Shown here: one piece after another, positions 19,421-32,289 of the stretch
Layout: each line of letters opens with the position of its first letter
How positions within the stretch are numbered: the first letter of the stretch is position 1
Origin: Leisingera aquaemixtae
GTDB taxonomy: Bacteria > Pseudomonadota > Alphaproteobacteria > Rhodobacterales > Rhodobacteraceae
DNA: 64,000 nt
Direction of reading: 5' to 3'
Assembly (NCBI RefSeq): GCF_001458395.1
Contig: NZ_CYSR01000030.1
Location: 434,001-498,000, forward strand
Translations under genes and position numbers: made by a program
The notes under the pieces: model-generated
Seen by the model: the letters and a program-made list of their open reading frames with translations, nothing else
What the model was told of the DNA's origin: nothing
Database searches by the model: none

Positions 19421-20536
19421 TCAGAACTTCCAGCGCGCGCCCAATACCCAGGTCGAGACATCCTGGTAAGACGCCGCGGCATCCTCATAATCATACTCCT
19501 GGTAAGTCAGGTATATGTCGGTATTGAAATTCTTAACCTTCTGAACCGCACCGATACCCCAGCCCTTGGAGCTGGAGCCGTTCACATTGAAGTCCTCGCC
19601 TTCATAGTAATGCACCCCAAGACCGGTCTTGCCCCAGGGCAGCCATTCGTTTTCATAGCCGATCTTGGCGTAGTAATAGCTGGGGTCACTCGCGCCTGCC
19701 GCGTCATTGTCGCGGGTGCCGCCCGCAACGGTGAAGCTGATCCCGTTGTCCAGCAGCACCGAGGCAGAGCCGATCACGTCGGACCGCTCATCGCCATCGT
19801 CTTCGCGCACCTGATAAGCCAGGGATGCGGCGAAATTGGTGGGACCGAACTCCTGCCCGTAGAACACGCCGATATCATAGTAGTCGGCTTCATCGGATGA
19901 AGAGAGGACGTTCTGCCCCCAGGCCAGGCCTGCGGAAAAGCCATTGAAATCCGGCGTGTCGTAACGGATGCGGCCGCGTCTGGACCCGTCGAGATTGTCA
20001 AACGCATCCGCCAGGACCGGCCCGCTGAGCGCCCCCGCGGTGTCGCGGATCAGGAACCCGGCATTGGAGTCGACCTTGAAGGAGTAGAGCGCGGTGCCGA
20101 CATAAGACAGATCCGTCTCCGCCGCGCCGTCCGCCAACATGCTGCCCTGCCCGGCTGAGAATTTGCCCCAGCCTCCCTCCAGCCAGAAGTCAACATGGCG
20201 CAGGTCGGCGCGGGTCCAGCCGCTGTAGTCGGACCCGAACTGATTGACTTCGGTCGAATTGGGAAAGCCCAGCCCGGTCTCAAACCGGAAGCCGAAGGCC
20301 GTGCCGCCCAGGGGCTGGATCAGCCGCAGCCCCACCCGGGACCGGGACAGGTCATTGTCCAGCAGGTTTGTCTCGGTCTGCTGTCCGTCATCGACGGAGA
20401 TGATTGCGGGATTCAGCTGGCCGTAGATTTCAACGGAACCGCCGGTGGTGTTGGTGTATTTCAGTTCGGCTGCCGCAGGCTGCGCCAGAACGCACAGCCC
20501 TGCCGCCGCCGCAGCACAGAAAGGAAGACGGGTCAC
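19421..20536 (-). CDS. Outer-membrane porin (Rhodobacteraceae type), copy 2
   Basis: 371 residues. Signal peptide ending QPAAAE, then a 16-strand-like barrel pattern closely parallel to copy 1: YTNTTGGSVEIYGQLNPAI, SRSRVGLRL, VDFWLEGGWGKFSAGQGSM, RRGRIRYDTPDFNG and the same terminal GARWKF. General diffusion of small solutes is the likely role. Differences from copy 1 concentrate in presumed loops (for example SSDEADYYDIGVFYGQEFG), which suggests altered selectivity or phage/immune exposure. It is the last chromosomal gene before the genomic island border. Confidence 0.9.
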   Translation of the reverse strand: MTRLPFCAAAAAGLCVLAQPAAAELKYTNTTGGSVEIYGQLNPAIISVDDGQQTETNLLDNDLSRSRVGLRLIQPLGGTAFGFRFETGLGFPNSTEVNQFGSDYSGWTRADLRHVDFWLEGGWGKFSAGQGSMLADGAAETDLSYVGTALYSFKVDSNAGFLIRDTAGALSGPVLADAFDNLDGSRRGRIRYDTPDFNGFSAGLAWGQNVLSSSDEADYYDIGVFYGQEFGPTNFAASLAYQVREDDGDERSDVIGSASVLLDNGISFTVAGGTRDNDAAGASDPSYYYAKIGYENEWLPWGKTGLGVHYYEGEDFNVNGSSSKGWGIGAVQKVKNFNTDIYLTYQEYDYEDAAASYQDVSTWVLGARWKF

Positions 20537-20683
20537 GGCTGCTCTCCTTGATCCTCAAACTGGTGATCAGCACCTAGGCGACAGGTAGCGCGCCCGCGTC
20601 AAAGGCAAGGCCTGCTTGCGCACCACCCGCGCCGCAGCTTCCGAACCGTGCGTAAGCTTCCAGTCGAACACATCTGAAGGATG

Positions 20684-20703
20684 GTGCGGGTGAAGGGCCT
20701 TAA
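20684..20703. repeat. Left att site (copy of tRNA-Leu 3' end)
   Basis: TGGTGCGGGTGAAGGG matches 29714-29729 exactly; after one mismatch (C against A) three more bases agree. On the minus strand it reads as the T-stem/acceptor end of tRNA-Leu including CCA. Confidence 0.85.
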
Positions 20704-20714
20704 AAAGCTATATC

Positions 20715-20842
20715 TAGCTATTCTAGCTGATGTCAGCCTGTGCGCGATTGGCCGCTTTTACCTGTAATTTCATAAACTTTGCCATCTCATACAGTCTCGA
20801 CACGTTGCACTGAATACTATACCTTGAGGTGGACCAAAAGGT
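20715..20842. repeat. Short repeats beside the att site
   Basis: TCTAGCT occurs twice (20715-20721 and 20724-20730), and AGGTGGAC occurs twice a little further on (AGGTGGACCAAAAGGTGGAC, from about 20827). Such direct repeats near an att core could be integrase arm-type sites; this is inference. Confidence 0.35.
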
Positions 20843-21948
20843 GGACTGAAACCGAGGGAACCACGGCCAGAAACAAATTGACTGCACGCGGCATTATGGC
20901 TCTCGAGGCGGGGAAATACTGTGATGGCGCTGGGCTCTGGCTGGTTAAACCGGAACCCAAAAACGGCAAATGGGTGCTGCGCATCACGGTTCATGGCAAA
21001 CGACGAGAAATGGGGCTCGGGCGCTGGCCTGATGTAAGTTTGGCCGAGGCGCGTGAAAAGGCGGATGAAGCGCGCCGTGAACTGCGGGATGGGCGCGATC
21101 CGATCCGGGAGCGTCAAAAGCGGCGCCGGGTTGCCCAGCGCAATCTGCACCTGTTTCGAGATATTGCTCATGATGCTTTTGAAACGCGCAAGGCAGAGCT
21201 AAGAGATGGCGGAAAGGCCGGCCGCTGGTTTAGTCCGCTCGAACTGCATGTGTTACCGAAACTGGGCCATATGCCCGTCGCGGAGATCACCCAAATCGAC
21301 CTGCGCGACTGCTTTGCGCCGATCTGGCACACGAAAGCAGAAACCGCTCGCAAGGCCCTGACCCGCACCTCCATCTGCCTGGAACACGCGGCGGCGCTGG
21401 GCATCGATGTGGACCTGCAGGCGCCAAAGAAAGCACGGGCACTACTTGGAAAATCCAAGACAACATCCACCAACATACCTGCGCTTCCCTGGCAAGGGGT
21501 GCCAACCTTCTATCAGAGCCTTGACGAGGGATCTGTGACGCATCTTGCGCTACGGCTGTTGATCCTAACGGGTGTGCGCTCCAAGCCTCTGAGATTTATG
21601 CGGGAAGAGCAGATAGAGGGGGATGTCAGGGTGATCCCCGCGGACCAAATGAAGGGGCGAAAGGACGCGACCGCGGATTTCCGTGTCCCGATCTCCACCG
21701 AGGCGCTGCGTGTTATCAATAAAGCGCGCCAACATGCGCGTGACGGGTATCTCTTCCCTAGCGTTCGCAAGGGCGTGATTTCCGACGCCACCATGTCGCG
21801 GCTGATGGAACGGCGCGGAATGAAGGCTCGACCCCACTGGTTCCGGTCCAGTCTTCGAGTCTGGTTGGCCGAGGCGACGGATGCGAGCCATGAAGTCGCT
21901 GAGACGATGCTTGGCCATGTGGTCGGGAGTGCTGTCGTGCGCGCTTAA
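20779..21948 (+). pseudogene. P4-type tyrosine integrase, lacks catalytic tyrosine
   Basis: The frame covers an N-terminal DUF4102 DNA-binding domain (KLTARGIMALEAGKYCDG, GRWPDVSLAEAREKADEARR), a core-binding domain, and most of the catalytic domain: LTGVRSKPLRF with the first Arg, then PHWFRSSLRVW with His/Arg, then MLGHVVGSAVVRA with the second His. The family continues with a Tyr directly after this RA, but a TAA stands there and the next bases are unrelated. The start is also unclear: no ATG precedes the conserved KLTARGI; TTG codons at 20779 and 20824 are options. Probably disrupted by the IS110-like remnant that follows. Confidence 0.8.
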
Positions 21949-22250
21949 TCGGGCTGGCCTGATGGATGGGTCGGGTTCTCGATAGACTTGCAGCAAATTG
22001 CTGCAACTTGAGGAGAACGAGATGGATTACTTTGTGGGTTTGGACGTGTCACTGCGGACTGTCGCCGTCTGCGTGATTGATACCGACGGCCAACACGTCT
22101 TCGAGCGCATTGCCGCAAAAGACCCCGACCGCCAAACCGCCGAAATCCACTTCCGCATCGCACTCATCAACCGCTTCAACGCACTCGGCACTGCCAAGAT
22201 CATCCGCGTCGCCTAAATTCGGAGGGGAAAGGGGTAGTCAGACCTCAAGA
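21949..22250 (+). mobile_element. IS110-like element remnant
   Basis: Foreign DNA begins where the integrase stops. The leader 21986-22004 contains TTGCAGC-aaatt-GCTGCAA, a perfect 7-bp inverted repeat, before a short transposase-like frame. IS110 elements carry a structured non-coding end before the recombinase gene; only about 70 bases are present here. The right boundary is somewhere before the manC fragment at about 22264. Confidence 0.5.
22022..22216 (+). pseudogene. Transposase fragment, IS110-type N-terminus
   Basis: 64 codons from an ATG behind GAGGAGA. MDYFVGLDVSLRTVAVCVID is the RuvC-like N-terminus of IS110-family transposases, carrying the first catalytic Asp (GLDVS). Full-length proteins have more than 300 residues. 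After about residue 40 the sequence changes to QTAEIHFRIALINRFNALG, which resembles the tail of another transposase type as far as I recall. So this is a deletion product or chimera and cannot be active. Confidence 0.6.
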
Positions 22251-22256
22251 GGGAGT

Positions 22257-22276
22257 TATACCACAATGCCGTGGTA
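22257..22276. repeat. Inverted repeat at the manC breakpoint
   Basis: ATACCAC-aatgcc-GTGGTAT, a perfect 7-bp palindrome arm pair exactly where similarity of the manC fragment ends. It may be an IS end or target structure. Confidence 0.4.
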
Positions 22277-22380
22277 TCACCGGCCAGAGGCACGAACTGC
22301 TTGGCGTAGCTTTTGCGCGACAGCGGCCACAGCCGGGTGCCCGAACCGCCGCACAAAAGGATTGGGGTGATAATCGTCAT
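22264..22380 (-). pseudogene. manC: Truncated mannose-1-phosphate guanylyltransferase (5' end only)
   Basis: Reading from the ATG at 22380 the product begins [20 protein letters not shown] and goes on [17 protein letters not shown], which is the nucleotide-binding start of ManC/GMP (signature [12 protein letters not shown]...KQF). After about 38 residues it runs into unrelated DNA next to the IS110 remnant. Intact ManC has about 470 residues and makes GDP-mannose, the substrate of the Gmd encoded upstream. It lies 21 bases after fcl, so it was the last gene of the sugar operon before being cut. Confidence 0.75.
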
Positions 22381-22401
22381 GTCTCTGCCTCTTGGTCTTT
22401 C

Positions 22402-23376
22402 CTATTTATTTCGCAGGATGGCCAGATCCTGCTGCAAAAACCAGTTGTAGGTTCTGGCGATCCCCTCTTCGAGCGATACCGAAGCCTCCCAGCCCAGACG
22501 GGAAAGCCGCGACACATCCATCAGTTTCTGCATGGTGCCATCGGGCCGGGAAGTATCGAAGGCCAGCCGCCCGCGGAAACCGGTGACGCGTGCAATGGAT
22601 TCCGCCAGTTCCCGAATGGTCATGTCCCGCCCTGTTCCCACGTTGATATGCGACAGCATCGGGGTTGTCTCCCGCTTGTAATCCTCCGGCGCCAGATCCA
22701 TCACAAAGAGCGATGCGGCAGCCATGTCATCCACATGCAGGAACTCCCGGCGCGGCGCTCCGCTGCCCCAGATGACAACTTCCGCCTCCCCTGCCCGCAC
22801 AGCCTCGTCAAACCGGCGGATCAGCGCGGGCAGAACATGCGAGTTTTCCGGGTGGAAATTGTCCCCCGGCCCGTACAGGTTCGTCGGCATCACTGAACGG
22901 TAGTCGGTGCCGTACTGGCGGTTATAGCTCTCGCACAGCTTGATGCCTGCGATCTTGGCAATGGCATAGGGCTCATTGGTGGCTTCCAGCGGGCCGGACA
23001 AAAGCTGCTCCTCGCGGATCGGCGTTTCCGCGTCGCGCGGGTAGATGCAGGATGACCCCAACTGCAGCAGCTTCTGCACCCCGGCCTCAAAGGCGGCGTG
23101 GATCACATTGCACTGAATCATCAGGTTTTCGTAGATGAATTGTGCGGGATAGGTGCTGTTGGCATGAATTCCCCCGACCCGGGCTGCCGCCAGAATGACC
23201 TGGTCAGGCCGCTCAGCCTGCAGGAATTGCTGCACAGCGGCCTGGTTTGTCAGATCCAGTTCGGCAGAGCTGCGGGTCAGCAGCTCCAGCTCTTCCCCGG
23301 TGGCCCGGCGCGCGGCAAGCTGGCGCAGGATAGCGCTGCCGACCATGCCGCGGTGTCCGGCCACAAATATTTTCAT
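22402..23376 (-). CDS. fcl: GDP-L-fucose synthase (GDP-4-keto-6-deoxymannose epimerase/reductase)
   Basis: 324 residues from the ATG at 23376, four bases after the gmd stop. SDR fold with [10 protein letters not shown] near the N-terminus, [26 protein letters not shown] with the catalytic Ser, Y-x-x-x-K in PYAIAKIAG and the substrate loop [20 protein letters not shown]. Converts the Gmd product to GDP-L-fucose with NADPH. The close match over the whole length favours Fcl over ColC, although ColC enzymes belong to the same superfamily. Product use: surface polysaccharide. Confidence 0.93.
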
Positions 23377-23380
23377 ACGT

Positions 23381-24499
23381 TCAGTCCTCCAGCGAGACCG
23401 GCAAATCGTAGCCGTGCTCCTTGAGCAGCGCGTGGCGGCGGGCGGTATGCAGGTCTTCGGCAATCATTTCCGCGCACATCTCCTGTACCGTGATTTCCGG
23501 CACCCAGCCCAGCTTTTCCTTGGCCTTCGTCGGATCGCCAAGCAGCGTTTCCACTTCCGCAGGGCGGAAATAGCGAGGATCGATCCGCATAACCACATCA
23601 CCTGGCTTGAGGGCGGGCGCCTTACCCCCTTCGACTGCGGCGACCACGGCCACCTCGTCGAAGCCGCTGCCAGAAAACTCCAGCATGATGCCCAGTTCCG
23701 CTGCCGCCCACTGAATGAACTGCCGCACCGTGTACTGCACACCGGTGGCGATGACGAAGTCATCCGCCTGCTGTTGCTGCAGCATCATCCATTGCATCCG
23801 CACATAGTCCCGCGCATGACCCCAATCGCGCAGCGCATTGATATTGCCCATGTACAGGCAGGGTTCCAGGCCCTGGGCGATATTGGCCAGTCCGCGGGTA
23901 ATCTTGCGGGTCACAAAGGTCTCGCCGCGGCGCGGGCTCTCGTGGTTAAACAGGATGCCGTTGCAGGCATACATACCATAGGCCTCACGGTAGTTGACCG
24001 TGATCCAGTAGGAGTAAAGCTTGGCCACCGCATAGGGAGAGCGGGGATAGAAAGGCGTGGTTTCGCGCTGCGGCGTTTCCTGCACAAGGCCATATAGCTC
24101 AGACGTCGACGCCTGGTAGAAACGGGTCTTGTTTTCCAGCCCGAGGAAGCGGATAGCCTCCAGCAGGCGCAAAGTTCCGATCGCATCCACATCCGCCGTG
24201 TATTCCGGTGCTTCAAAGGAGACCGCGACATGAGATTGTGCTCCCAGGTTGTAAACTTCATCCGGCTCGACCTCGCGCATGATGCGGGTCAGGTTCGACG
24301 TGTCGGTCAGGTCGCCGTAGTGCAGCTTGAAGCGGGCGTGATCCGCATGCGGGTCCTGGTAGATATGATCCACCCTCTGGGTGTTGAACGAGGAGGCGCG
24401 CCGCTTGATGCCATGCACCTCATAGCCTTTTTCCAGCAAAAGCTCCGCCAGATAGGATCCGTCTTGTCCGGTTACGCCTGTAATCAGTGCTCTTTTCAT
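23381..24499 (-). CDS. gmd: GDP-mannose 4,6-dehydratase
   Basis: 372 residues from the ATG at 24499. The NADP site is [19 protein letters not shown], and the catalytic Thr/Glu/Tyr-Lys are in ASTSELYG and [12 protein letters not shown]. The family segments [16 protein letters not shown] and [10 protein letters not shown] are intact. Converts GDP-D-mannose to GDP-4-keto-6-deoxy-D-mannose, the branch point for L-fucose, rhamnose, perosamine and colitose. Followed 4 bases later by fcl. The GDP-mannose must come from a ManC elsewhere, since the local manC is cut. Confidence 0.96.
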
Positions 24500-24565
24500 C
24501 GCGTGTTTCCGCCGTGTTCTGTTGTCGGCCGGGCAGCGGGAGGATCCGCCCAAACCAGGTAGCTG

Positions 24566-25759
24566 TCAGATGGAGGCCGTGTCCATGTCCTTGGGCCGGG
24601 CGACCGAAGTAAAGACCTCGGCAACCCTGGCGGCATCAGCACGGTCCAGGTTATGATGGTTCGGCAGGTAGATGCCGTAATCATGCACCAGATCCGCATT
24701 GGGCAGCGTCTGCTCGCCGTATTCCCGCACCCAGAAGGGATGGCGGGCAATATTGCCGCAGATCAGCGGGCGGCACTCAATCCGGTGGGCCTTCAGTGTC
24801 TCGAAAACCTCCATCCGGTTCTCGACCAGCGTGCCGTAAGCAAAAGAGGACAGCAGCCCGGTCTCGCTTCGCTGCTGATAGTAGCCGGTCAGCGCCTCCG
24901 CGTAGCAGTCAAAGTTGCGCGCCCGGACGGTGCAGATGTCATCCAGCTTCTTCAGCTGCATCCGCCCGATGAAGGCCTGCAGGTCGGTGGAGCGCAGATT
25001 GAAGCCCGCATGGTAGAACGTGTAGAAATTGCGGAACTCATCAATCTTGTGCTGGCTTTTCAGCCGCTCGCGCCGCTGCGGATCAAGGTCCCTGCTCCAG
25101 CCATGTGAGCGCAGCGACAGCATCACCTGGTGCAGTTCCGCATCGTCGGTCACCACCATTCCGCCCTCGATAGTCGAAATGTGGTGGCCGTAGTAGAATG
25201 AGAAACTGCCCGCCGCTCCGTGGCAGCCCAGTTTGCGGTCTCCGTAAGTGGAGCCCAGCGCTTCGCAGCTGTCCTCCAGCAGCAGGATGCCGTAGCGGTC
25301 GCAAATCTCCTGAATTTCCTTCAAGTGATTTGCGTGACCCAGCACATGCACAAGGATCAGCATCGACGGCGCCTCAGTCCGGCACAGCTCTTCGAGGTGG
25401 TTGAGATCAAGGCCCAGATTGTCAGGGTCGCAATCGCAAAGGCGAACGTCAAAGCCGAGCTGCATCAGCGGCGACACCGTCGTGACCCAGCTTACAGCCG
25501 GGGCAATCACCTTGTTGTTGCGCAAGCGGCCCGCCTCCTTGGCGGCATAGATCATCAGCAGGTTCGCCGAGGAGCCCGAGTTGACAAAGACCGCGTGCCC
25601 GCAGCCCATCCAGTCCGCAAATTCGCGTTCAAACTCCACTGTCAGGGCGTCCTTGGTCAGCCGGTTGCCTGCCAGCATCCATTCCGCAGTTGCTTCCAGC
25701 TCAGCCTGCGAGATCGTATCTTCCGCCAGGGTGACCGGTTTCGGAGCAAGCATGTTCAT
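24566..25759 (-). CDS. ColD-like PLP-dependent sugar 3-dehydratase (DegT family)
   Basis: 397 residues. DegT/DnrJ/EryC1/StrS fold with VNSGSSANLLMIYA (PLP phosphate region), LLEDSCEALGS (Asp163 to the PLP ring nitrogen) and FYYGHHISTIEGGM. In aminotransferases of this family the residue six before EGG is the PLP-forming Lys; here it is His192. The same Lys-to-His change defines GDP-4-keto-6-deoxymannose 3-dehydratase ColD (His188 in E. coli) and CDP-sugar RfbH. With gmd alongside, the likely reaction is removal of the 3-hydroxyl on the way to GDP-colitose. The ATG overlaps the glycosyltransferase stop by 4 bases. Confidence 0.8.
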   Translation of the reverse strand: MNMLAPKPVTLAEDTISQAELEATAEWMLAGNRLTKDALTVEFEREFADWMGCGHAVFVNSGSSANLLMIYAAKEAGRLRNNKVIAPAVSWVTTVSPLMQLGFDVRLCDCDPDNLGLDLNHLEELCRTEAPSMLILVHVLGHANHLKEIQEICDRYGILLLEDSCEALGSTYGDRKLGCHGAAGSFSFYYGHHISTIEGGMVVTDDAELHQVMLSLRSHGWSRDLDPQRRERLKSQHKIDEFRNFYTFYHAGFNLRSTDLQAFIGRMQLKKLDDICTVRARNFDCYAEALTGYYQQRSETGLLSSFAYGTLVENRMEVFETLKAHRIECRPLICGNIARHPFWVREYGEQTLPNADLVHDYGIYLPNHHNLDRADAARVAEVFTSVARPKDMDTASI

Positions 25760-26532
25760 GCGCGCGCACCCCGCACAGCCTGCATGGCCTTCAATTCGAT
25801 GTAGTGATGACGCACTTCATTATAGGCCGCTGCAATGTCGGCCTGCTTCTGCTTGTCTTTGAAGGCATCGATCGTGATGCTGCCGTCATGCGCCCGGAAA
25901 CTGGCCAGCGGCTCTTTAACGAATCCGACCTTCGGGTAACGCAGCATCGATAGAAGCGACGCAAAAATATCCGGTCCGACGCCGTGATACTCACTGGACT
26001 GGAGCGGCAAGCGGCCCTGATAAAGAGCATCGATCAGCACCTGCCGGCGAAAGACTGCCGCACCGGGGGAAATCAACGAGCCGACGATTTTTTCCTCGGC
26101 CAGGCGGTTTTCGAACACCCCCGTATCCGGAAGCCAGTCCAGGAACTGCGTCATCATTTGCCTGCCGGTTCCGTCCTCCACAACCTCGGCCCCGGTGAAG
26201 GCAAATCCCACATCACTGGTCAGCAGCTTTGCGCATTTCTCGATAAAGGTCGGGTGGATCCAGTCATCGTCATATTGCAGATGCACATATTCACCGGAAG
26301 CATGCAGGATGCCCTCCAGCCAGCAGAAATGCGGACCGAAATCGCGGTCGCGGCGGACATAGGTGATCTTGTCCCCGTACTCGGCAGCTACCTCAGGCGT
26401 GCTGTCGGTCGAACCGTGATCCACCACGATCACCTCGCAGGGATGGGTCTGTGCCAGGGCGCTATCGATGGCCTTAAGCAGCATCTCCGCCCGGTTGAAT
26501 GTCGGGATGACAATGGAAATCTGTTCAGACAT
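25756..26532 (-). CDS. Family 2 glycosyltransferase
   Basis: 258 residues from the ATG at 26532, overlapping the end of the SDR gene by 8 bases. GT-A fold: ISIVIPTFNRAEMLLKAIDS at the N-terminus, VVDHGSTDSTPEVAAEY, FGPHFCWLEGI, and the metal-binding D-x-D-like QYDDDWI near residue 85. An acidic catalytic-base region follows (SSEYHGVGPDIF). Likely adds a sugar to a polysaccharide or O-antigen unit on the cytoplasmic side. Donor unknown; the neighbouring GDP-deoxysugar genes suggest fucose or a dideoxyhexose. Confidence 0.88.
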   Translation of the reverse strand: MSEQISIVIPTFNRAEMLLKAIDSALAQTHPCEVIVVDHGSTDSTPEVAAEYGDKITYVRRDRDFGPHFCWLEGILHASGEYVHLQYDDDWIHPTFIEKCAKLLTSDVGFAFTGAEVVEDGTGRQMMTQFLDWLPDTGVFENRLAEEKIVGSLISPGAAVFRRQVLIDALYQGRLPLQSSEYHGVGPDIFASLLSMLRYPKVGFVKEPLASFRAHDGSITIDAFKDKQKQADIAAAYNEVRHHYIELKAMQAVRGARA

Positions 26533-27322
26533 TGCATTCTCCAAGTAATTCCTGCAGGCGCGAAACATCGGCCACCAGATTTGTGCTTTCACCCAAGGGT
26601 TTGATTTTCAGCGGAAACGGGGATAGGGACTGGGCAAATCCGGCCACCGTGACAGGCCTGCCGGAGGCAACATTGACCACACCCTCCGCGTCCGAAAGCG
26701 CCAGCCGCACGAGATAGCGGGCCGCCTCTTCTGCCGTCAGAAAGTCGCGCAGTCCTTCTGCGCCGTACAGCTCGAACTCTTCCTCAGGATCCACCCCGGC
26801 AAAACGCCTTTCCAGCGATGGCCGCAGGTAGCTGCCTGTCTGCTCCGGATCATGGATCGAGAACAGCCGGGCGATGCACAACGAGCGCCCGGAGGCCGCG
26901 CAGATATCCCGAGCAGCATGCTCCGCCATCAGTTTGCTCTGACCATAGAGGGAAACCGGTTTGGTATCGGCGGTCTCGCAAATCGGCGCATACTGGCTGG
27001 AATAGACATGGCTTGACGAACACAGCAGCAGCCGAGCCGATGATCCTGCAAGCGCCGCCAGAAGGTTCATGGTGCCGCCGGCGTTCACCGCATAGGCCCG
27101 GGCTGGATCTGCTTTCACTTCAGCCACCGGAACCATCGCTGCCAGATGAATGACCAGATCCAGCGGCCCCGCTTCCTTGACCGCCGCTGCTGCGGCGGAA
27201 AGGCTCGTCAGATCAGCCGTGTTGCGGATCATTTCTGCCTGCGGCGCCAACTCAGCCAGCGCCCTCAAGGCATGCCGACCAACGATCCCGCCGCTGCCCG
27301 TGATATAGATTCTCTCTGTCAT
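26525..27322 (-). CDS. NAD-dependent epimerase/reductase of the extended SDR family
   Basis: 265 residues, shorter than typical nucleotide-sugar epimerases (about 300). The Rossmann motif is GSGGIVGRHALRAL, then LVIHLAAMVP, catalytic SSSHVYSSQ and Y-x-x-x-K in LYGQSKLMAEHAA, with a late DFLTAEEAARYLVRL. In this operon it could be the second enzyme after the ColD-like dehydratase (a ColC-type epimerase/reductase) or a GDP-4-keto-6-deoxymannose reductase. The sequence alone does not decide between them. It starts 2 bases after the preceding glycosyltransferase stop. Confidence 0.75.
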   Translation of the reverse strand: MTERIYITGSGGIVGRHALRALAELAPQAEMIRNTADLTSLSAAAAAVKEAGPLDLVIHLAAMVPVAEVKADPARAYAVNAGGTMNLLAALAGSSARLLLCSSSHVYSSQYAPICETADTKPVSLYGQSKLMAEHAARDICAASGRSLCIARLFSIHDPEQTGSYLRPSLERRFAGVDPEEEFELYGAEGLRDFLTAEEAARYLVRLALSDAEGVVNVASGRPVTVAGFAQSLSPFPLKIKPLGESTNLVADVSRLQELLGECNV

Positions 27323-27324
27323 GC

Positions 27325-28257
27325 TTACTCTGCGGCCACGGCCTGCTCAGGCAGGCCAAAGATCTTGCGGTACTTGGCCTCAAGAGCCGCGCTTTTTTGC
27401 TCGATTTTGTTCAGCGGCGGCTTCTTCGCAAAAGCCTCTGCCTTGCCATACCAGGAGAAATCCCCGCTCAGCACGGCATTTGCAAAGGAGCGCGTGCTCA
27501 AACCTTGCGATTTGATAAGTTCATTGTCCTTGTGCGGGCGGAATTCGGCCTGTGCATTCGGATCGGAATAGTACCGCCCGATCACCTTGCGCAGGCGGGT
27601 CATTTTCAGCCCCTTCCCTTGCAGAAGATTCCAGAAAATCGCATCTCCGATCGACAGGATCGGCTCACCGTTTCCGAAATAGGTCGGGTACCATTTTCCG
27701 ATGATTTCGAGGTCCCACATCGTTGCAGCACCATAGGTGCCGCGTTCACCGGATCCGCTGCCTAGCCGCAACCCTTCGCAAGGCCGGGGCGGCCAGGCCG
27801 GCACAAAGCAGGTGCCGTCATAACCCGTTACCGGGAATTCCTGCGTCAGATGATCCTTGTCGAAACAGATCAGCCAGTCCCCGCCCACAAGCGCGGACCT
27901 TGTCTCCACTGCCTTCTTTGACAGTTCCTGCACAGCATTGGTTGCTAGCCGGTCATCCATGTTTAGATTCATGGCATATCTGGTTCCGGCCAACGCCACG
28001 CCTGCTGCCCAGGCTTCATAAATGGTGAGCGGTTTTGAAAAGGAATGCCAAGGCGCTTCAAGCCAATCCGGCGCCTGGTCGCCATTGTCGAAGATGTAGC
28101 AAGGTTCAACCGGAATGGACTGGGACTTCAAATTCTCCCAATGCGAGCGCAAAAGCTCCAGCTTGTCAGGCTGCTGATGCCAAACGGCGCAGAATACCGT
28201 TACCAAACGCCGGTCTTTCTGAGCGGTATCCGGCTGATTATGTGACTCAAAGTGCAT
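27325..28257 (-). CDS. Glycosyltransferase-like protein, first gene of sugar operon
   Basis: 310 residues if the ATG at 28257 (MHFESHNQPD) is used; an ATG seven codons upstream is an alternative, and neither has a strong ribosome site. The N-terminal half resembles GT-A glycosyltransferases: VTVFCAVWHQQPDKLELLRS, YIFDNGD, PLTIYEAWAAGVALAGTRY and NLNMDDRL as a likely D-x-D site. The C-terminal half (about 180-310) has no motif I know. It heads a tightly packed operon of seven genes running to the manC fragment. Confidence 0.7.
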   Translation of the reverse strand: MHFESHNQPDTAQKDRRLVTVFCAVWHQQPDKLELLRSHWENLKSQSIPVEPCYIFDNGDQAPDWLEAPWHSFSKPLTIYEAWAAGVALAGTRYAMNLNMDDRLATNAVQELSKKAVETRSALVGGDWLICFDKDHLTQEFPVTGYDGTCFVPAWPPRPCEGLRLGSGSGERGTYGAATMWDLEIIGKWYPTYFGNGEPILSIGDAIFWNLLQGKGLKMTRLRKVIGRYYSDPNAQAEFRPHKDNELIKSQGLSTRSFANAVLSGDFSWYGKAEAFAKKPPLNKIEQKSAALEAKYRKIFGLPEQAVAAE

Positions 28258-28402
28258 TCTGCAGCTTCTCCAAAACAATGTCTGCGAGGCTTTGCCCCTA
28301 TGAGAAACTGGCTAACGGACAAAAAATAATTTTAGGTTAAGTGACGGGTTCTCTGTTCGGTACCCAAGGAGGCAGGCAAACGCCCCAGGAAGGCACAGCC
28401 GG

Positions 28403-28959
28403 TGACGTGCTCCCCGCAGAGTCCGCGGTTATTAGTTCGCCCTGTTCAGGGTTTGGTCCTCTACTGACCGTTGGTGATACTCCCACGGGGTGAGCCCGTC
28501 GAGGCTCGTATGCGGGCGATGGTGATTGTAATCGTCACGCCAAGCCGCGATCAGCTCTCGGGCGTGGCGCAGGTTGGCGAACAAGTGCTCGTTCAGGCAC
28601 TCGTCCCGGAGGCGGCCATTGAAGCTTTCCACGAAGCCGTTCTGCATGGGCTTGCCTGGCGCGATGTAGTGCCACTCGACCTTCCGGTCTTCCTGCCATT
28701 TCAGAATGGCATTCGACGTCAGTTCGGTCCCATTATCGCTGACCACCATGCAGGGATAGCCACGCGTTCGGGCGATATTATCGAGCTCACGGGCAACCCG
28801 CTGGCCGGAGAGTGAGGTGTCCACGACCGCGGCCAGGCATTCCCGGCTGAAGTCGTCTATGACGCATAGCACCCGGAAACGGCGGCCATCGGACAGGCTG
28901 TCTCCTCGCTTGGAGAACAGGCTAACTTCAAATCGCGGACTTTTCAGGGGAGCACGTCA
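28403..28959. mobile_element. IS3-family element with both ends but an internal deletion
   Basis: Terminal inverted repeats are visible: TGACGTGCTCCCC at 28403-28415 and its complement at 28947-28959. Similarity continues inward as GTCCGCG at both ends with one extra base. Total length is 557 bases, about half of a normal IS3 element. orfA and the first half of orfB are gone. No target-site duplication is seen at the flanks (CGG against GCC). It lies upstream of the sugar operon. Confidence 0.7.
28432..28931 (-). pseudogene. IS3-family transposase OrfB, C-terminal part
   Basis: The open frame runs from the right inverted repeat without a stop into [20 protein letters not shown], and an ATG at 28872 is only an internal Met. 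The rve integrase core has all three DDE residues (D in VIDDFSR, D in VVSDNGTE, E in [17 protein letters not shown]) and the [19 protein letters not shown] tail typical of IS3 OrfB. The N-terminal DNA-binding part and OrfA are missing, so it cannot transpose alone. Confidence 0.8.
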
Positions 28960-29713
28960 GCCATGTCGATCACTCCAATAACCCCTGCCGATAAAAGCCA
29001 GGGGCACGGTCACACATGGGCCAATTCTCAATGAAAACTTTCGCCTGTCCCGGGTCAGATCTAAGCGGAAATCACCAGGCAAACACCTAGAAGAGCAACG
29101 ACGGTTTTGTTGCGCACTGTGTGAGTTCACCGGTTCCAGAACCTCGCAGTTGCAACAAACGGCAGGAACGGCGGGTTGCGCCACAGCAGAAATCCTCGGC
29201 TGTTTGTGTCAAACTGTCGAGTTTTCAAGGGGCACTTCCTGCGCGTTGCTGCCGTCGGAGCGATCTACAGCATAAGTAGAAGCTATCTAGCGTCACCGAG
29301 CGTCCGCTTCCCGGGAAGGCGCCCCCGATAAATCCACCTGCAGTATTCAGCGCCGCCTGCTCTATATCAATGGCCGCTCCGGGGTTGCGCTGCGGACGAA
29401 ACAGCAATTTTCCCAAACAATCTTAATGTCGGTTCGTAGGCACATTCGGCACCGGCCATCTGTGCCACTTTGAAACGTTTGGACGCTTATTGGAGCTGTC
29501 TTGATTTGTGAACCATTGAGCTACTCACAAATGGTCAGGACCGAAAAAGAGCGCGCAGTGCACCCCCCCCGATGGCCCTCCCGCAGACGGAGGGCGTTTG
29601 GGGTTCAGATCTCCTGGCGCATCAGGCGGAACTAAAAAGGGGGACTAGGGGGTGGGCTAAACTTCCAACACCCCAACTAACCAAATGAAATACATAATTA
29701 TTCCTTGGTCTAT
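28960..29713. other. 754-base AT-richer stretch without a convincing gene
   Basis: At 29018-29040 and 29052-29074 two related blocks occur (GGGCCAATTCTCAATGAAAA and GGGTCAGATCTAAGCGGAAA). They resemble the repeated transposase-binding sites at the ends of IS21-type elements. A hairpin at 29575-29595 (GCCCTCC with GGAGGGC) is followed by GTTT. There is a run of eight C at 29563-29570. The open frames here are short, without ribosome sites or homology. Confidence 0.4.
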
Positions 29714-29733
29714 TGGTGCGGGTGAAGGGACTT
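29714..29733. repeat. Right att site inside tRNA-Leu
   Basis: The last 16 bases of the tRNA (with CCA) are identical to 20684-20699 in the same orientation, marking the second island border. Confidence 0.85.
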
Positions 29734-29798
29734 GAACCCCCACGCCTTGCGGCGCCAGAACCTAAATCTGGTGCGTCTACCAATTCCGCCACACCCGC
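29714..29798 (-). tRNA. tRNA-Leu (anticodon UAG)
   Basis: 85 bases including an encoded CCA. The acceptor GCGGGTG pairs with CACCCGC. The D-arm GGCGGAATTGGTAGACGC, the anticodon stem-loop CCAGATTTAGGTTCTGG (anticodon TAG), the long variable arm GCGCCGCAAGGCGT and the T-loop GTTCAAGTC are all standard for class II tRNA-Leu, close to E. coli leuW. Its 3' end is the integration site of the island, and the coding sequence is preserved intact. Confidence 0.97.
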
Positions 29799-30018
29799 AC
29801 GGCACAAAGGTCTGCCCCTCGTGTGACGCGCTGAATAGCAAAGCTTGGCGGCGGATGCGAGCGGAAATCGCGCCGCCGCGGCCGTTGTGCAAAACAGCAA
29901 CAATCCATGCGGAATATCGCAACGATGAGCGGGTTTTTGCGCAATAAGGCTGGGCCTGGAATCCGGTTGTGCCGTAGTTTGGCAGAAAAAGTCTGAGGCA
30001 GACAAAGCGAGCAACAAC

Positions 30019-30546
30019 ATGAAACCGTTTGGAAATGCGGCCCTGCGCGCGCAATTGGCGATGCGCGGGCAGGCACAGCCCCGGCGGCTGTTTCAGGGCA
30101 GCCAGAACATCAGCCTCTTGCGCGGCACCGCTGTGCTGACCCGCGAGGGGGAGCGCGCAGCAGAAGACATCACGGCAGGCGACAGCCTGATCACCCGCAC
30201 CCAGGGCATGGCCCGGGTCGAGGCCGTCCGCAGCCGCCGCGCGATGCTGCAGGCGGTCTGCATTGCTGCCGGTTCTCTGGGCGATACCGGGGGCGAAGGC
30301 GGCCTCACCGTGCCGTGGGACCAGCGCATTCTGGTGCGCGACTGGCGCACCAAGGCGATGTTCGGCCAGCCGCAGGCGGTGGTGCCGGCCTATGAGCTGG
30401 TGGACGGCGAGTTCATCCGCGACCTCGGCCTGCAGATGATGGATCTGACGGTGCTGGAGTTCTCCCGCCCGCATGTGATCTACGCAGGCGGTCTGGAGCT
30501 GGCCGCGGCCGCCGCGCCGCAAGAGGACCTGCGCCCGGCGGCCTGA
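30019..30546 (+). CDS. Hint-domain (hedgehog/intein type) protein
   Basis: 175 residues. The core reads GTAVLTREGERAAEDITAGDSLITRTQGMARVEAVRSRR, the pattern of the Hint_2 domain seen in many Rhodobacteraceae proteins: a residue before T-x-x-G, then V/I-E-D/L-x-x-G-D. The usual nucleophilic Cys/Ser at the splice position is replaced by the G-T of RGTAV. There is no secreted partner domain and no C-terminal His-Asn, so autocatalytic splicing is unlikely. Convergent with the NAD(P)HX gene with only 3 bases between the stops and no terminator. Confidence 0.7.
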   Translation: MKPFGNAALRAQLAMRGQAQPRRLFQGSQNISLLRGTAVLTREGERAAEDITAGDSLITRTQGMARVEAVRSRRAMLQAVCIAAGSLGDTGGEGGLTVPWDQRILVRDWRTKAMFGQPQAVVPAYELVDGEFIRDLGLQMMDLTVLEFSRPHVIYAGGLELAAAAAPQEDLRPAA

Positions 30547-30549
30547 TCC

Positions 30550-32289
30550 TTAAAGCCCCAGTTTACGGAAGACTGCGGGGATCTGCTCCGGCAGGTCCTC
30601 GGCAATCAGGCCGGGGCCGAATTCCAGCGCGCATTCGACATGGATATAGGCGGCGGTCTCGGACGCCTGCATCGGGGAAAACCCGCGCGCCAGCAGCCCG
30701 GTGATAAAGCCCGCCAGCACATCCCCCGACCCGGCGGTGGCCAGCCAGGGCGCGGACCGCTCGTAATGAGCGGAGTTCACAGAGCAGCGCCCGTCCGGCG
30801 CGGCGATCACCGTATCCGGCCCCTTGAACAGCACCACGCAGCCCGCGCGTTTGGCCGCTTCGCGGGTGGCGTCGACCTTGGAATAGGCCGGCCCAGTGGT
30901 CGCGGGCGCCTTCAGTTTTTCAGCCAAGTCCGGAAACAGCCTGGAAAATTCGCCGCCATGCGGGGTGATCACGCAGTTTTCGTGCAGGGCCTCGAACAGC
31001 GCCTCCGGCTTCAGCTCAAACCGGGTGAGCGCATCAGCGTCCAGAACGGTTGGCCGCTGTTCCTTCAGCGCCGCAAAGACCATTGCCTGAGTGTCCGCGC
31101 CGCGGCCCATGCCCGGCCCAAGGCAGAGAGCGCTGAGGCGGTCGTCTTCCAGCAGTTCCGCAAGCCCATGCGCCCCGTCGATCTGGCGCAGCATGATGGC
31201 GTTCAGGTTGGCAGCGTTCTCAAACATCGCCGAGCGCGGTGAGCCGACAGTAACCAGCCCCGCCCCGATCCGCAGGGCGCCGCGGGCGGCAAGGCGCGCT
31301 GCTCCGGTTTTGCCGTGACCGCCGGAGAGGACGAGGGCGTGGCCGTGGCTGTATTTGTGGCCGCCTAGCCGAGAAGACTTATTCAAATCGTAGCCAGGCC
31401 ACATCCGCTTTGAACGCCCGTTTGGTATATCAAACGAAAGCTGGGTAGCCAAATCCGCGCTTCTTGCTATCTTTAGATGCGACGGGTGCCGGTCTTCCTG
31501 GCCTAGCCCGATATCAACTAACCGCTCCCTCCGAAGCCCTTCATGCAGTCCGTGGCAGACCTTCCGCCGATGGAAGGTTACAACCAGATCGGATTGCAGA
31601 AACCGCTTAGATGCATCCTCAAGCCACCATTTGGACTTGATCTCAGCATCGCGTTCTTCATCACCGGAATCCACGGGCAAGTCAGGGATAAGAAACTCGC
31701 CGCTGTCGCTGTCCATGCCAGACGGGCAGTCCACCGCGACACGATGATACGGAACTCGCCAGGGGTGTCTGCATCCCACATCCCGCCCCTCAACTGCATG
31801 GTATGCATTGGCCAGTTCAAGAGGTATCGCCCGAGTCAGGCCGGTTCCAAACATTGCATCAACCAGCAGCACCGGACGCTGACCTTGCGCGACAGCTTTT
31901 TCTGTCAGTTGAACAACGCCGCCCAACTCCCGCCACCGCTCATAATTCACCTTCGCATCCGGCGGCAGCTTCTCCGGGTCTCCATAAAGGAACACCTCCA
32001 CCGCCCAGCCGCGCTCTTTCAGCAGCCGCGCCACCACAAATCCGTCGCCGCCATTGTTGCCAGGCCCGCACAGGACCACCACCCGGCGCGGCATTTCATC
32101 TTTCCCCAAATACTCCGGGGGTGCGGGGGCCGGCCCCCGCTCATCCGCGAGTTCCGGCCATTCCTCGAAGATGGCCTCGACCACCCCCTGCCCGGCCCGT
32201 TCCATCAGTTCCAGCCCGGTGACTTCCCCGGACTCGATGGCGGTCTGCTCAATCGCCCGCATCTGGGCTGCGGTCAGCAGTTCGGTCAT
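30550..32289 (-). CDS. nnr: Bifunctional NAD(P)HX epimerase / ADP-dependent dehydratase
   Basis: 579 residues, longer than the usual 480-540. The N-terminal YjeF_N epimerase has GPGNNGGDGFVVARLL, VDAMFGTGL and VAVDCPSGMDSDSG. The C-terminal YjeF/carbohydrate-kinase dehydratase has GHALVLSGGHGKTGAARLAA, LCLGPGMGRG, CVITPHGGEFSRL and ATAGSGDVLAG with the catalytic Asp. Repairs hydrated NADH and NADPH. An insert of about 35 charged residues (about 198-232) sits where the family has a short loop before the VVTF strand, and a smaller one at about 165-180. Confidence 0.93.
   Translation of the reverse strand: MTELLTAAQMRAIEQTAIESGEVTGLELMERAGQGVVEAIFEEWPELADERGPAPAPPEYLGKDEMPRRVVVLCGPGNNGGDGFVVARLLKERGWAVEVFLYGDPEKLPPDAKVNYERWRELGGVVQLTEKAVAQGQRPVLLVDAMFGTGLTRAIPLELANAYHAVEGRDVGCRHPWRVPYHRVAVDCPSGMDSDSGEFLIPDLPVDSGDEERDAEIKSKWWLEDASKRFLQSDLVVTFHRRKVCHGLHEGLRRERLVDIGLGQEDRHPSHLKIARSADLATQLSFDIPNGRSKRMWPGYDLNKSSRLGGHKYSHGHALVLSGGHGKTGAARLAARGALRIGAGLVTVGSPRSAMFENAANLNAIMLRQIDGAHGLAELLEDDRLSALCLGPGMGRGADTQAMVFAALKEQRPTVLDADALTRFELKPEALFEALHENCVITPHGGEFSRLFPDLAEKLKAPATTGPAYSKVDATREAAKRAGCVVLFKGPDTVIAAPDGRCSVNSAHYERSAPWLATAGSGDVLAGFITGLLARGFSPMQASETAAYIHVECALEFGPGLIAEDLPEQIPAVFRKLGL

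Follow-up and report, generated by a model that had tools for sequence, protein, structure and literature searches.

What has been inserted at the tRNA-Leu(UAG) gene of Leisingera aquaemixtae, and did it arrive there in one piece? The window, i.e. the whole stretch of 64,000 nt that was analysed (contig C30 of the source genome, G000), contains a direct repeat of the 3' end of this tRNA. Between the two copies lie a tyrosine integrase gene, six sugar genes (22402-28257) and the remains of insertion sequences (IS). A preliminary description had reported this sugar cargo and the broken IS elements, and had read the whole as an island of about 9 kb with foreign cargo. The repeat-bounded tRNA island stands. 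The cargo, on the other hand, is a cassette that is found in 9 of 21 Leisingera genomes and has a separate history. We consider it very probable that the unit is a composite of a disabled tRNA-Leu island and a sugar cassette that travels separately. The borders and flanks are as follows.

29714-29798, minus strand: intact tRNA-Leu(UAG) gene, the integration target (ARAGORN and Rfam)
29714-29729: attachment (att) repeat within the tRNA 3' end, 16 nt, exact
20682-20697: far att repeat, a copy of the tRNA 3' end, 16 nt, exact
19421-20536, minus strand: porB, core flank left of the island, which adjoins the tRNA in empty-site relatives
30019-32289: hint and nnr, core flank right of the island

With up to two mismatches allowed, the 16-mer of the tRNA-Leu(UAG) 3' end matches two places only in the window, the two att repeats that the preliminary description had pointed out. 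Shuffled controls gave a mean of 0.08 matches, and two matches were seen in 0 of 100 shuffles. The repeat extends to 91% identity over 23 nt; thus, the border first placed at 20684 was off by 2 nt. The relatives were taken from a genus sample of 21 Leisingera genomes, one per species. The empty site looked for in them was found in seven (G001, G004, G010, G011, G015, G018 and G019). At the empty loci L011, L014, L015 and L019, all Leisingera (the assemblies of G010, G001, G019 and G011), the tRNA is followed by porB within ~220 bp, and then by porA and tig. Repeat-bounded inserts are present at tRNA-Leu in four genomes, G000 (9.0 kb), G005, G007 and G014. In the remaining 10 the site is arranged differently, or the DNA examined did not resolve it.

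Most of the island consists of a block that recurs in the closest relative, the sister species G004.

21946-28402: shared block, matching G004:C2:3706509-3712964, 98.96% identical

The match spans 6,457 bp with one gap column. The tRNA-Leu site of G004 is empty and lies 2.5 Mb from its block in contig coordinates. The flanks of the tRNA site are 92.6-93.4% identical between G000 and G004. Over 500-bp windows, median identity is 99.3% for the block (n = 12) and 94.2% for three of the four aligned flank stretches (n = 32). At third codon positions the six cassette genes are 97.8-99.6% identical between the two genomes, compared with 83.2-93.4% for six core genes. The same picture is obtained when colD is set against tig. 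Between G000 and G004 colD is 99.2% identical and tig 97.3%, whereas colD falls below tig in all 10 comparisons of either genome with five others. Among the 21 pairs of these seven genomes colD exceeds tig in two, G000-G004 and G011-G014.

In the genus, colD is present at 91-100% identity in nine genomes, all of which also have sdr and gt2. The cassette occupies five sites, and in eight of the nine genomes it lies away from tRNA-Leu. The neighbours on the fcl side are common to G010, G011, G014, G015 (where one gene is visible) and G018; G000, G004, G005 and G016 each have their own. A search of G000 for the left flank of the G004 block gave partial repeats only, and none of the 356 matching plasmid records covers 80% of the cassette. 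The near-identical cassette at a different place in the sister species suggests that the sugar genes travel apart from the island.

The edges of the block are marked by scars.

21946-22275: two transposase pieces, a scar common to the window and G004
22264-22371, minus strand: N-terminal fragment of a manC-type guanosine diphosphate (GDP)-mannose pyrophosphorylase gene (36 positions of TIGR01479)
28403-28959: IS3-type element with an internal deletion and perfect inverted ends of 13 nt

The transposase scar and the manC stub are inside the shared block, and both copies have identical broken ends. We take the two transposase pieces, labelled by eye, to be IS110-like and then IS5-like. The manC-type stub scores 44.7 bits with TIGR01479, which as a fragment is under the cut-off. 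The IS3-type remnant adjoins the right block edge; sequence related to it is found next to the cassette of G015. Further to the right, ~29079-29330 is a dispersed repeat, of which the genome contains four further partial copies. In the G004 stretch it is matched at least three times, once just outside the G004 block.

The left edge of the block coincides with the end of the integrase gene.

20779-21948, plus strand: P4-type tyrosine integrase (Pfam Arm-DNA-bind_3, Phage_int_M and Phage_integrase)

The open reading frame starts 81 bp inside the far repeat, i.e. at the border away from the intact tRNA, as had been described. In an alignment the protein stops at the block edge, the point from which eight relatives go on into Y.R and the remainder of the catalytic end. 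We take this Tyr to be the catalytic one of tyrosine recombinases. The missing C-terminus was not found in 20601-29800 by tblastn with the last 60 residues of the eight relatives. This search returned the retained part of the integrase gene itself and otherwise weak matches (best E 0.051). As the integrase is cut just before the catalytic Tyr, the island should be unable to move itself, and from its sequence the integrase is expected to be inactive. A complete integrase able to excise the unit, the mark of a self-mobile element, is not present. Related integrases at other places in the genus lie in seven stretches. A tRNA gene, Ser-GCU, is present in two of these (in L277 immediately upstream of the integrase), and none was found in the other five within the DNA examined.

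We propose the following order of events. A small element with a P4-type integrase would have integrated at the 3' end of tRNA-Leu(UAG), so that the 16-bp repeat came to lie beside porB and the integrase at the tRNA-far end. Later the orf7-sdr-gt2-colD-gmd-fcl cassette, which would relocate by itself among Leisingera and is bounded by IS scars, would have been joined into the island, and the integrase would have lost its catalytic end at the cassette edge. The island would now be fixed unless the integrase of another element acts on its ends.

The preliminary description had called the far-end position of the integrase the less common layout, and at tRNA-Leu this is borne out by two such units against three with the integrase on the tRNA side. 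The three are the inner unit of G005 and the units of G007 and G014 (L184-L190, L172). In these, a phage-type integrase (recognized by Pfam in G007) immediately adjoins the tRNA, the tRNA repeats measure ~53-56 nt and the inserts 36-40 kb. The far-end layout recurs in the outer unit of G005. In this unit and in that of the window a P4-type integrase lies at the porB end, and the two integrases are 41% identical to each other. Both units are ~9 kb (~9.3 kb in G005), with repeats of 16 nt (window) and 14 nt (G005). By eye from the translation, we take the cargo of the G005 outer unit to be a MacAB-like export set without sugar genes. Since a 36-40 kb insert lies between the tRNA and the outer 9.3-kb unit in G005, the site has been used twice.

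A scan with nnr covered 80 named loci, the best 80 of 248. In eight of the 59 scanned loci with a forward tRNA-Leu, the tRNA side is occupied by a phage-type integrase; the eight include two fragments, and also L009 and L013 (the assemblies of G007 and G014). In L024 a weak P4-type match adjoins the tRNA, and in L021 there is a fragment at a distance of 6.7 kb. PMC8224337 describes prophages of Rhodobacteraceae as occupying tRNA genes, Leu included. In 12 Ruegeria loci (L050, L056, L058, L059, L060, L063, L067, L069, L076, L078, L080 and L088) porB comes after nnr and the locus yielded no tRNA-Leu(UAG), which means that the tRNA has been shifted or lost from this spot. Two observations concern the flanks. 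The start of porB and its upstream region (20512-20681) are far more diverged from the relatives than the remaining gene. Within nnr, 31362-31921 has no DNA match to G004, with ~93% identity on both sides, and by its sequence nnr looks mosaic.

What does the cassette encode? Its six genes all lie on the same strand.

22402-23376, minus strand: fcl, GDP-L-fucose synthase family (NF047922, 506.8 bits, cut-off 500)
23381-24499, minus strand: gmd, GDP-mannose 4,6-dehydratase (TIGR01472, 575 bits, cut-off 415)
24566-25759, minus strand: colD-like sugar 3-dehydratase dependent on pyridoxamine phosphate (PMP), carrying His at the position of the aminotransferase Lys (PDB 2gms)
25756-26592, minus strand: gt2, family 2 glycosyltransferase (PF00535, E 6e-28)
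26525-27322, minus strand: sdr, short protein of the extended short-chain dehydrogenase/reductase (SDR) type, 265 aa, YxxxK kept
27325-28257, minus strand: orf7, possible glycosyltransferase (weak WcaE match; invariant MNLNMDDRL)

Fcl passes its NCBIfam cut-off narrowly, and Gmd also passes its own. The best PDB match of the window ColD is ColD/WbdK (2gms, 223 bits), with the His aligned. For orf7 the match to TIGR04009 (E 0.0013) is far under the cut-off; no Pfam, PHROG or PDB match was found at the limits used, and a profile comparison with gt2 was not significant. A fold model of orf7 had a mean predicted local distance difference test score (pLDDT) of 46.5, too poor to be used.

From these families, the product is most likely a GDP-linked 3,6-dideoxyhexose on surface polysaccharide. 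Gmd would yield GDP-4-keto-6-deoxymannose, from which the ColD-like enzyme would remove the C3 hydroxyl. Reduction of the ColD product would give GDP-3,6-dideoxyhexose, which gt2, perhaps with orf7, would add to surface polysaccharide. As to GDP-mannose supply, three manC-type matches in G000 are over the cut-off. The G005 cassette lies near exopolysaccharide genes (Poly_export, Wzz and a group 1 glycosyltransferase), and such a setting, near genes for export, chain length and glycosyl transfer, speaks for a surface polysaccharide. In the window island, profile annotation identified no export or chain-length gene beside the cassette. In G016 the cassette gmd is broken by two stops (G016:C2:582039-582443), with no further gmd found elsewhere in the genome, so this copy is probably silent. 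No gmd was found in G510, whose cassette contig stops at colD.

To place the window ColD we used genome samples from the family (394), order (390) and phylum (398) with a threshold of E <= 1e-60. Matches were found in 16, 37 and 12 genomes, respectively. Of these, 5, 6 and 1 are of the window type, with 70-100% identity; the others are at 34-44%. In the samples searched, window-type ColD was found only in Rhodobacteraceae. The window-type set comprises 15 genomes, the nine of the genus together with G244, G312, G347, G510, G516 and G597. The genes sdr and gt2 adjoin colD in all 15, and orf7 was found in 13 (not in G244 and G347). The fcl gene adjoins the cassette in 11; it is unlinked in G312, G347 and G597, and the G510 contig stops at colD. 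The adjacent fcl genes of G005 and G516 belong to another Fcl lineage (53-57% identity).

The remaining ColD matches are spread over 43 genomes, 38 of which offered a locus to inspect. A ColC- or Fcl-like gene lies within ~1.5 kb of colD in 32 of the 38, three of these being partial matches. The window-type sdr was the best match near the other ColD in none of the 38 loci; a 32% relative of sdr is found in a wider stretch of G764. The motif HHISTIEGG of the window ColD occurs as HH[IV]STIEGG in 11 of the 11 window-type loci scanned. In the other ColD group the His pattern fits 3 of 11 loci, all with His, and eight loci fall outside it. This His is the acid/base of 3-dehydratases according to PMC8987622. 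The canonical ColD of G386 scores 580 bits against 2gms, compared with 223 for that of the window. On sequence grounds, the window ColD belongs to a separate clade and is not a canonical ColD.

For the last step, both sdr and Fcl are candidates. Our tentative proposal is that sdr-gt2-colD represents a ColC-free route, in which the distinct ColD clade and the 265-aa reductase would give a GDP-3,6-dideoxy-D-hexose, and that this module with its own glycosyltransferase spreads as a cassette between chromosomal sites. Presumably such a product would be tyvelose-like, with GDP instead of cytidine diphosphate activation. The best PDB sequence match of sdr is a GDP-6-deoxymannose reductase (6x3b). 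In all 15 genomes sdr has His where Fcl and ColC have Cys. We take Cys109 and His179 to be the catalytic residues of Fcl, and this Cys to be the epimerase residue. Two results speak against the proposal. Fold comparison places sdr in the extended SDR fold, where many SDR classes tie and a reductase is not singled out. Furthermore, all 15 window-type genomes have an Fcl match somewhere, a count that comes with no background rate from cassette-free genomes. These matches are over the cut-off in 12 genomes and at 494-500 bits in the other three. The last enzyme could therefore be Fcl as well as sdr.

It is possible, if somewhat doubtful, that the product is instead GDP-L-colitose. In this case Fcl would take the part of ColC (5-epimerase/4-reductase) and follow the ColD-like enzyme, and sdr would have another role. 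The Cys and His positions common to Fcl and ColC, which sdr lacks, and the Fcl matches in the whole window-type set are consistent with this. At three other ColD loci (L242, L243 and partly L255) the nearby gene is also Fcl-like instead of ColC-like. However, the fucose-synthase model gives the window Fcl 507 bits (506.8, over the cut-off of 500) and two ColC-type proteins 295 and 312 bits. Moreover, sdr and gt2 are the constant neighbours of colD (15 of 15), whereas fcl stands beside the cassette in 11.

We also considered that a single island arrived whole at tRNA-Leu with its sugar cargo and decayed in place. The unit is indeed bounded by repeats and contains an integrase, cargo and IS remnants. 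Its cargo also has a somewhat low GC content at third codon positions (GC3). The gene-by-gene test of composition anticipated in the preliminary description gave GC 0.56-0.61 and GC3 0.66-0.78 for the cargo, against 0.60-0.70 and 0.72-0.86 for eight neighbouring core genes. The cargo is thus lower in both, but the shift is mild and the ranges overlap. An arrival in one piece is nevertheless unlikely: the same block with its scars lies elsewhere in G004, whose tRNA site is empty, the integrase cut coincides with the block edge, and eight of the nine cassettes in the genus are away from tRNA-Leu.

Several points weigh against the composite origin as well. Compared with the empty sites of the relatives, the ~170 bp that separate porB from the far repeat (20512-20681) show strong divergence; past the far repeat one more base is common to four empty sites and the remainder aligns weakly. 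With one genome per species in the sample, the empty sites all come from other species. One of the 32 flank windows reaches 99.2% identity and one of the 12 block windows drops to 96.4%. The G011-G014 pair likewise has colD (98.1%) above tig (96.9%). Finally, inspection of the block borders by eye showed no target duplication, so the joining route may be IS transposition, recombination between IS copies, or deletion.

Could the cassette make L-fucose-type sugars only, its DegT-family protein being an ordinary perosamine-like aminotransferase? Gmd and Fcl are the GDP-L-fucose pair, and perosamine synthases belong to the DegT family. The catalytic Lys, however, is replaced by His in the window and in the 11 window-type loci scanned, and ColD is ahead of perosamine synthase by ~106 bits. 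We regard this explanation as improbable; the cargo is more than plain fucose synthesis. It is highly improbable that the cassette was misjoined to the tRNA-Leu region in assembly, since, although the genome is a draft of 40 contigs and IS remnants lie at both block edges, G000 has one full-length gmd and one close colD match, the borders are short scars and not long repeats, and contig C30 is continuous through them.

In the literature, a search combining colitose with Rhodobacteraceae returned nothing; other spellings and genus names were not combined with colitose. Judged by their titles, the papers returned for Leisingera, genomic island and integrase (PMC4148982 and PMC8224337 among them) include none on this site. 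As cassette and carrier island have separate histories, island-by-island tallies would misdate the trait. The ColD clade, constantly accompanied by a reductase-like protein and a glycosyltransferase, also leads to a testable prediction, namely an unusual dideoxy sugar in marine Rhodobacteraceae.

The locus is of a known kind, a tRNA island with mobile sugar cargo. Like P4-type tRNA islands it targets a tRNA 3' end, keeps the tRNA intact, and has a short far repeat and an integrase between the repeats. It differs from them in that the integrase is tRNA-far and cut, and in that most of the unit is taken up by a 6.5-kb cassette of separate history. With the GDP-L-colitose pathway (Gmd, ColD, ColC) it shares Gmd and a His-type PMP-dependent 3-dehydratase; in the window, however, ColD is of a separate clade with sdr and gt2 as constant partners, and Fcl is of the fucose-synthase type. 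The closest plasmid DNA is that of the gmd-fcl pairs of Phaeobacter and Leisingera plasmids. Among the 15 matches listed, these are 75.7-78.6% identical over gmd-fcl and cover 34-35% of the cassette, and the ColD relatives in 15 plasmid records are all <60% identical to the window ColD. Two things are new with respect to these systems: a disabled island is told apart from the travelling cassette within it, and colD, of a separate clade, forms a constant module with sdr and gt2.

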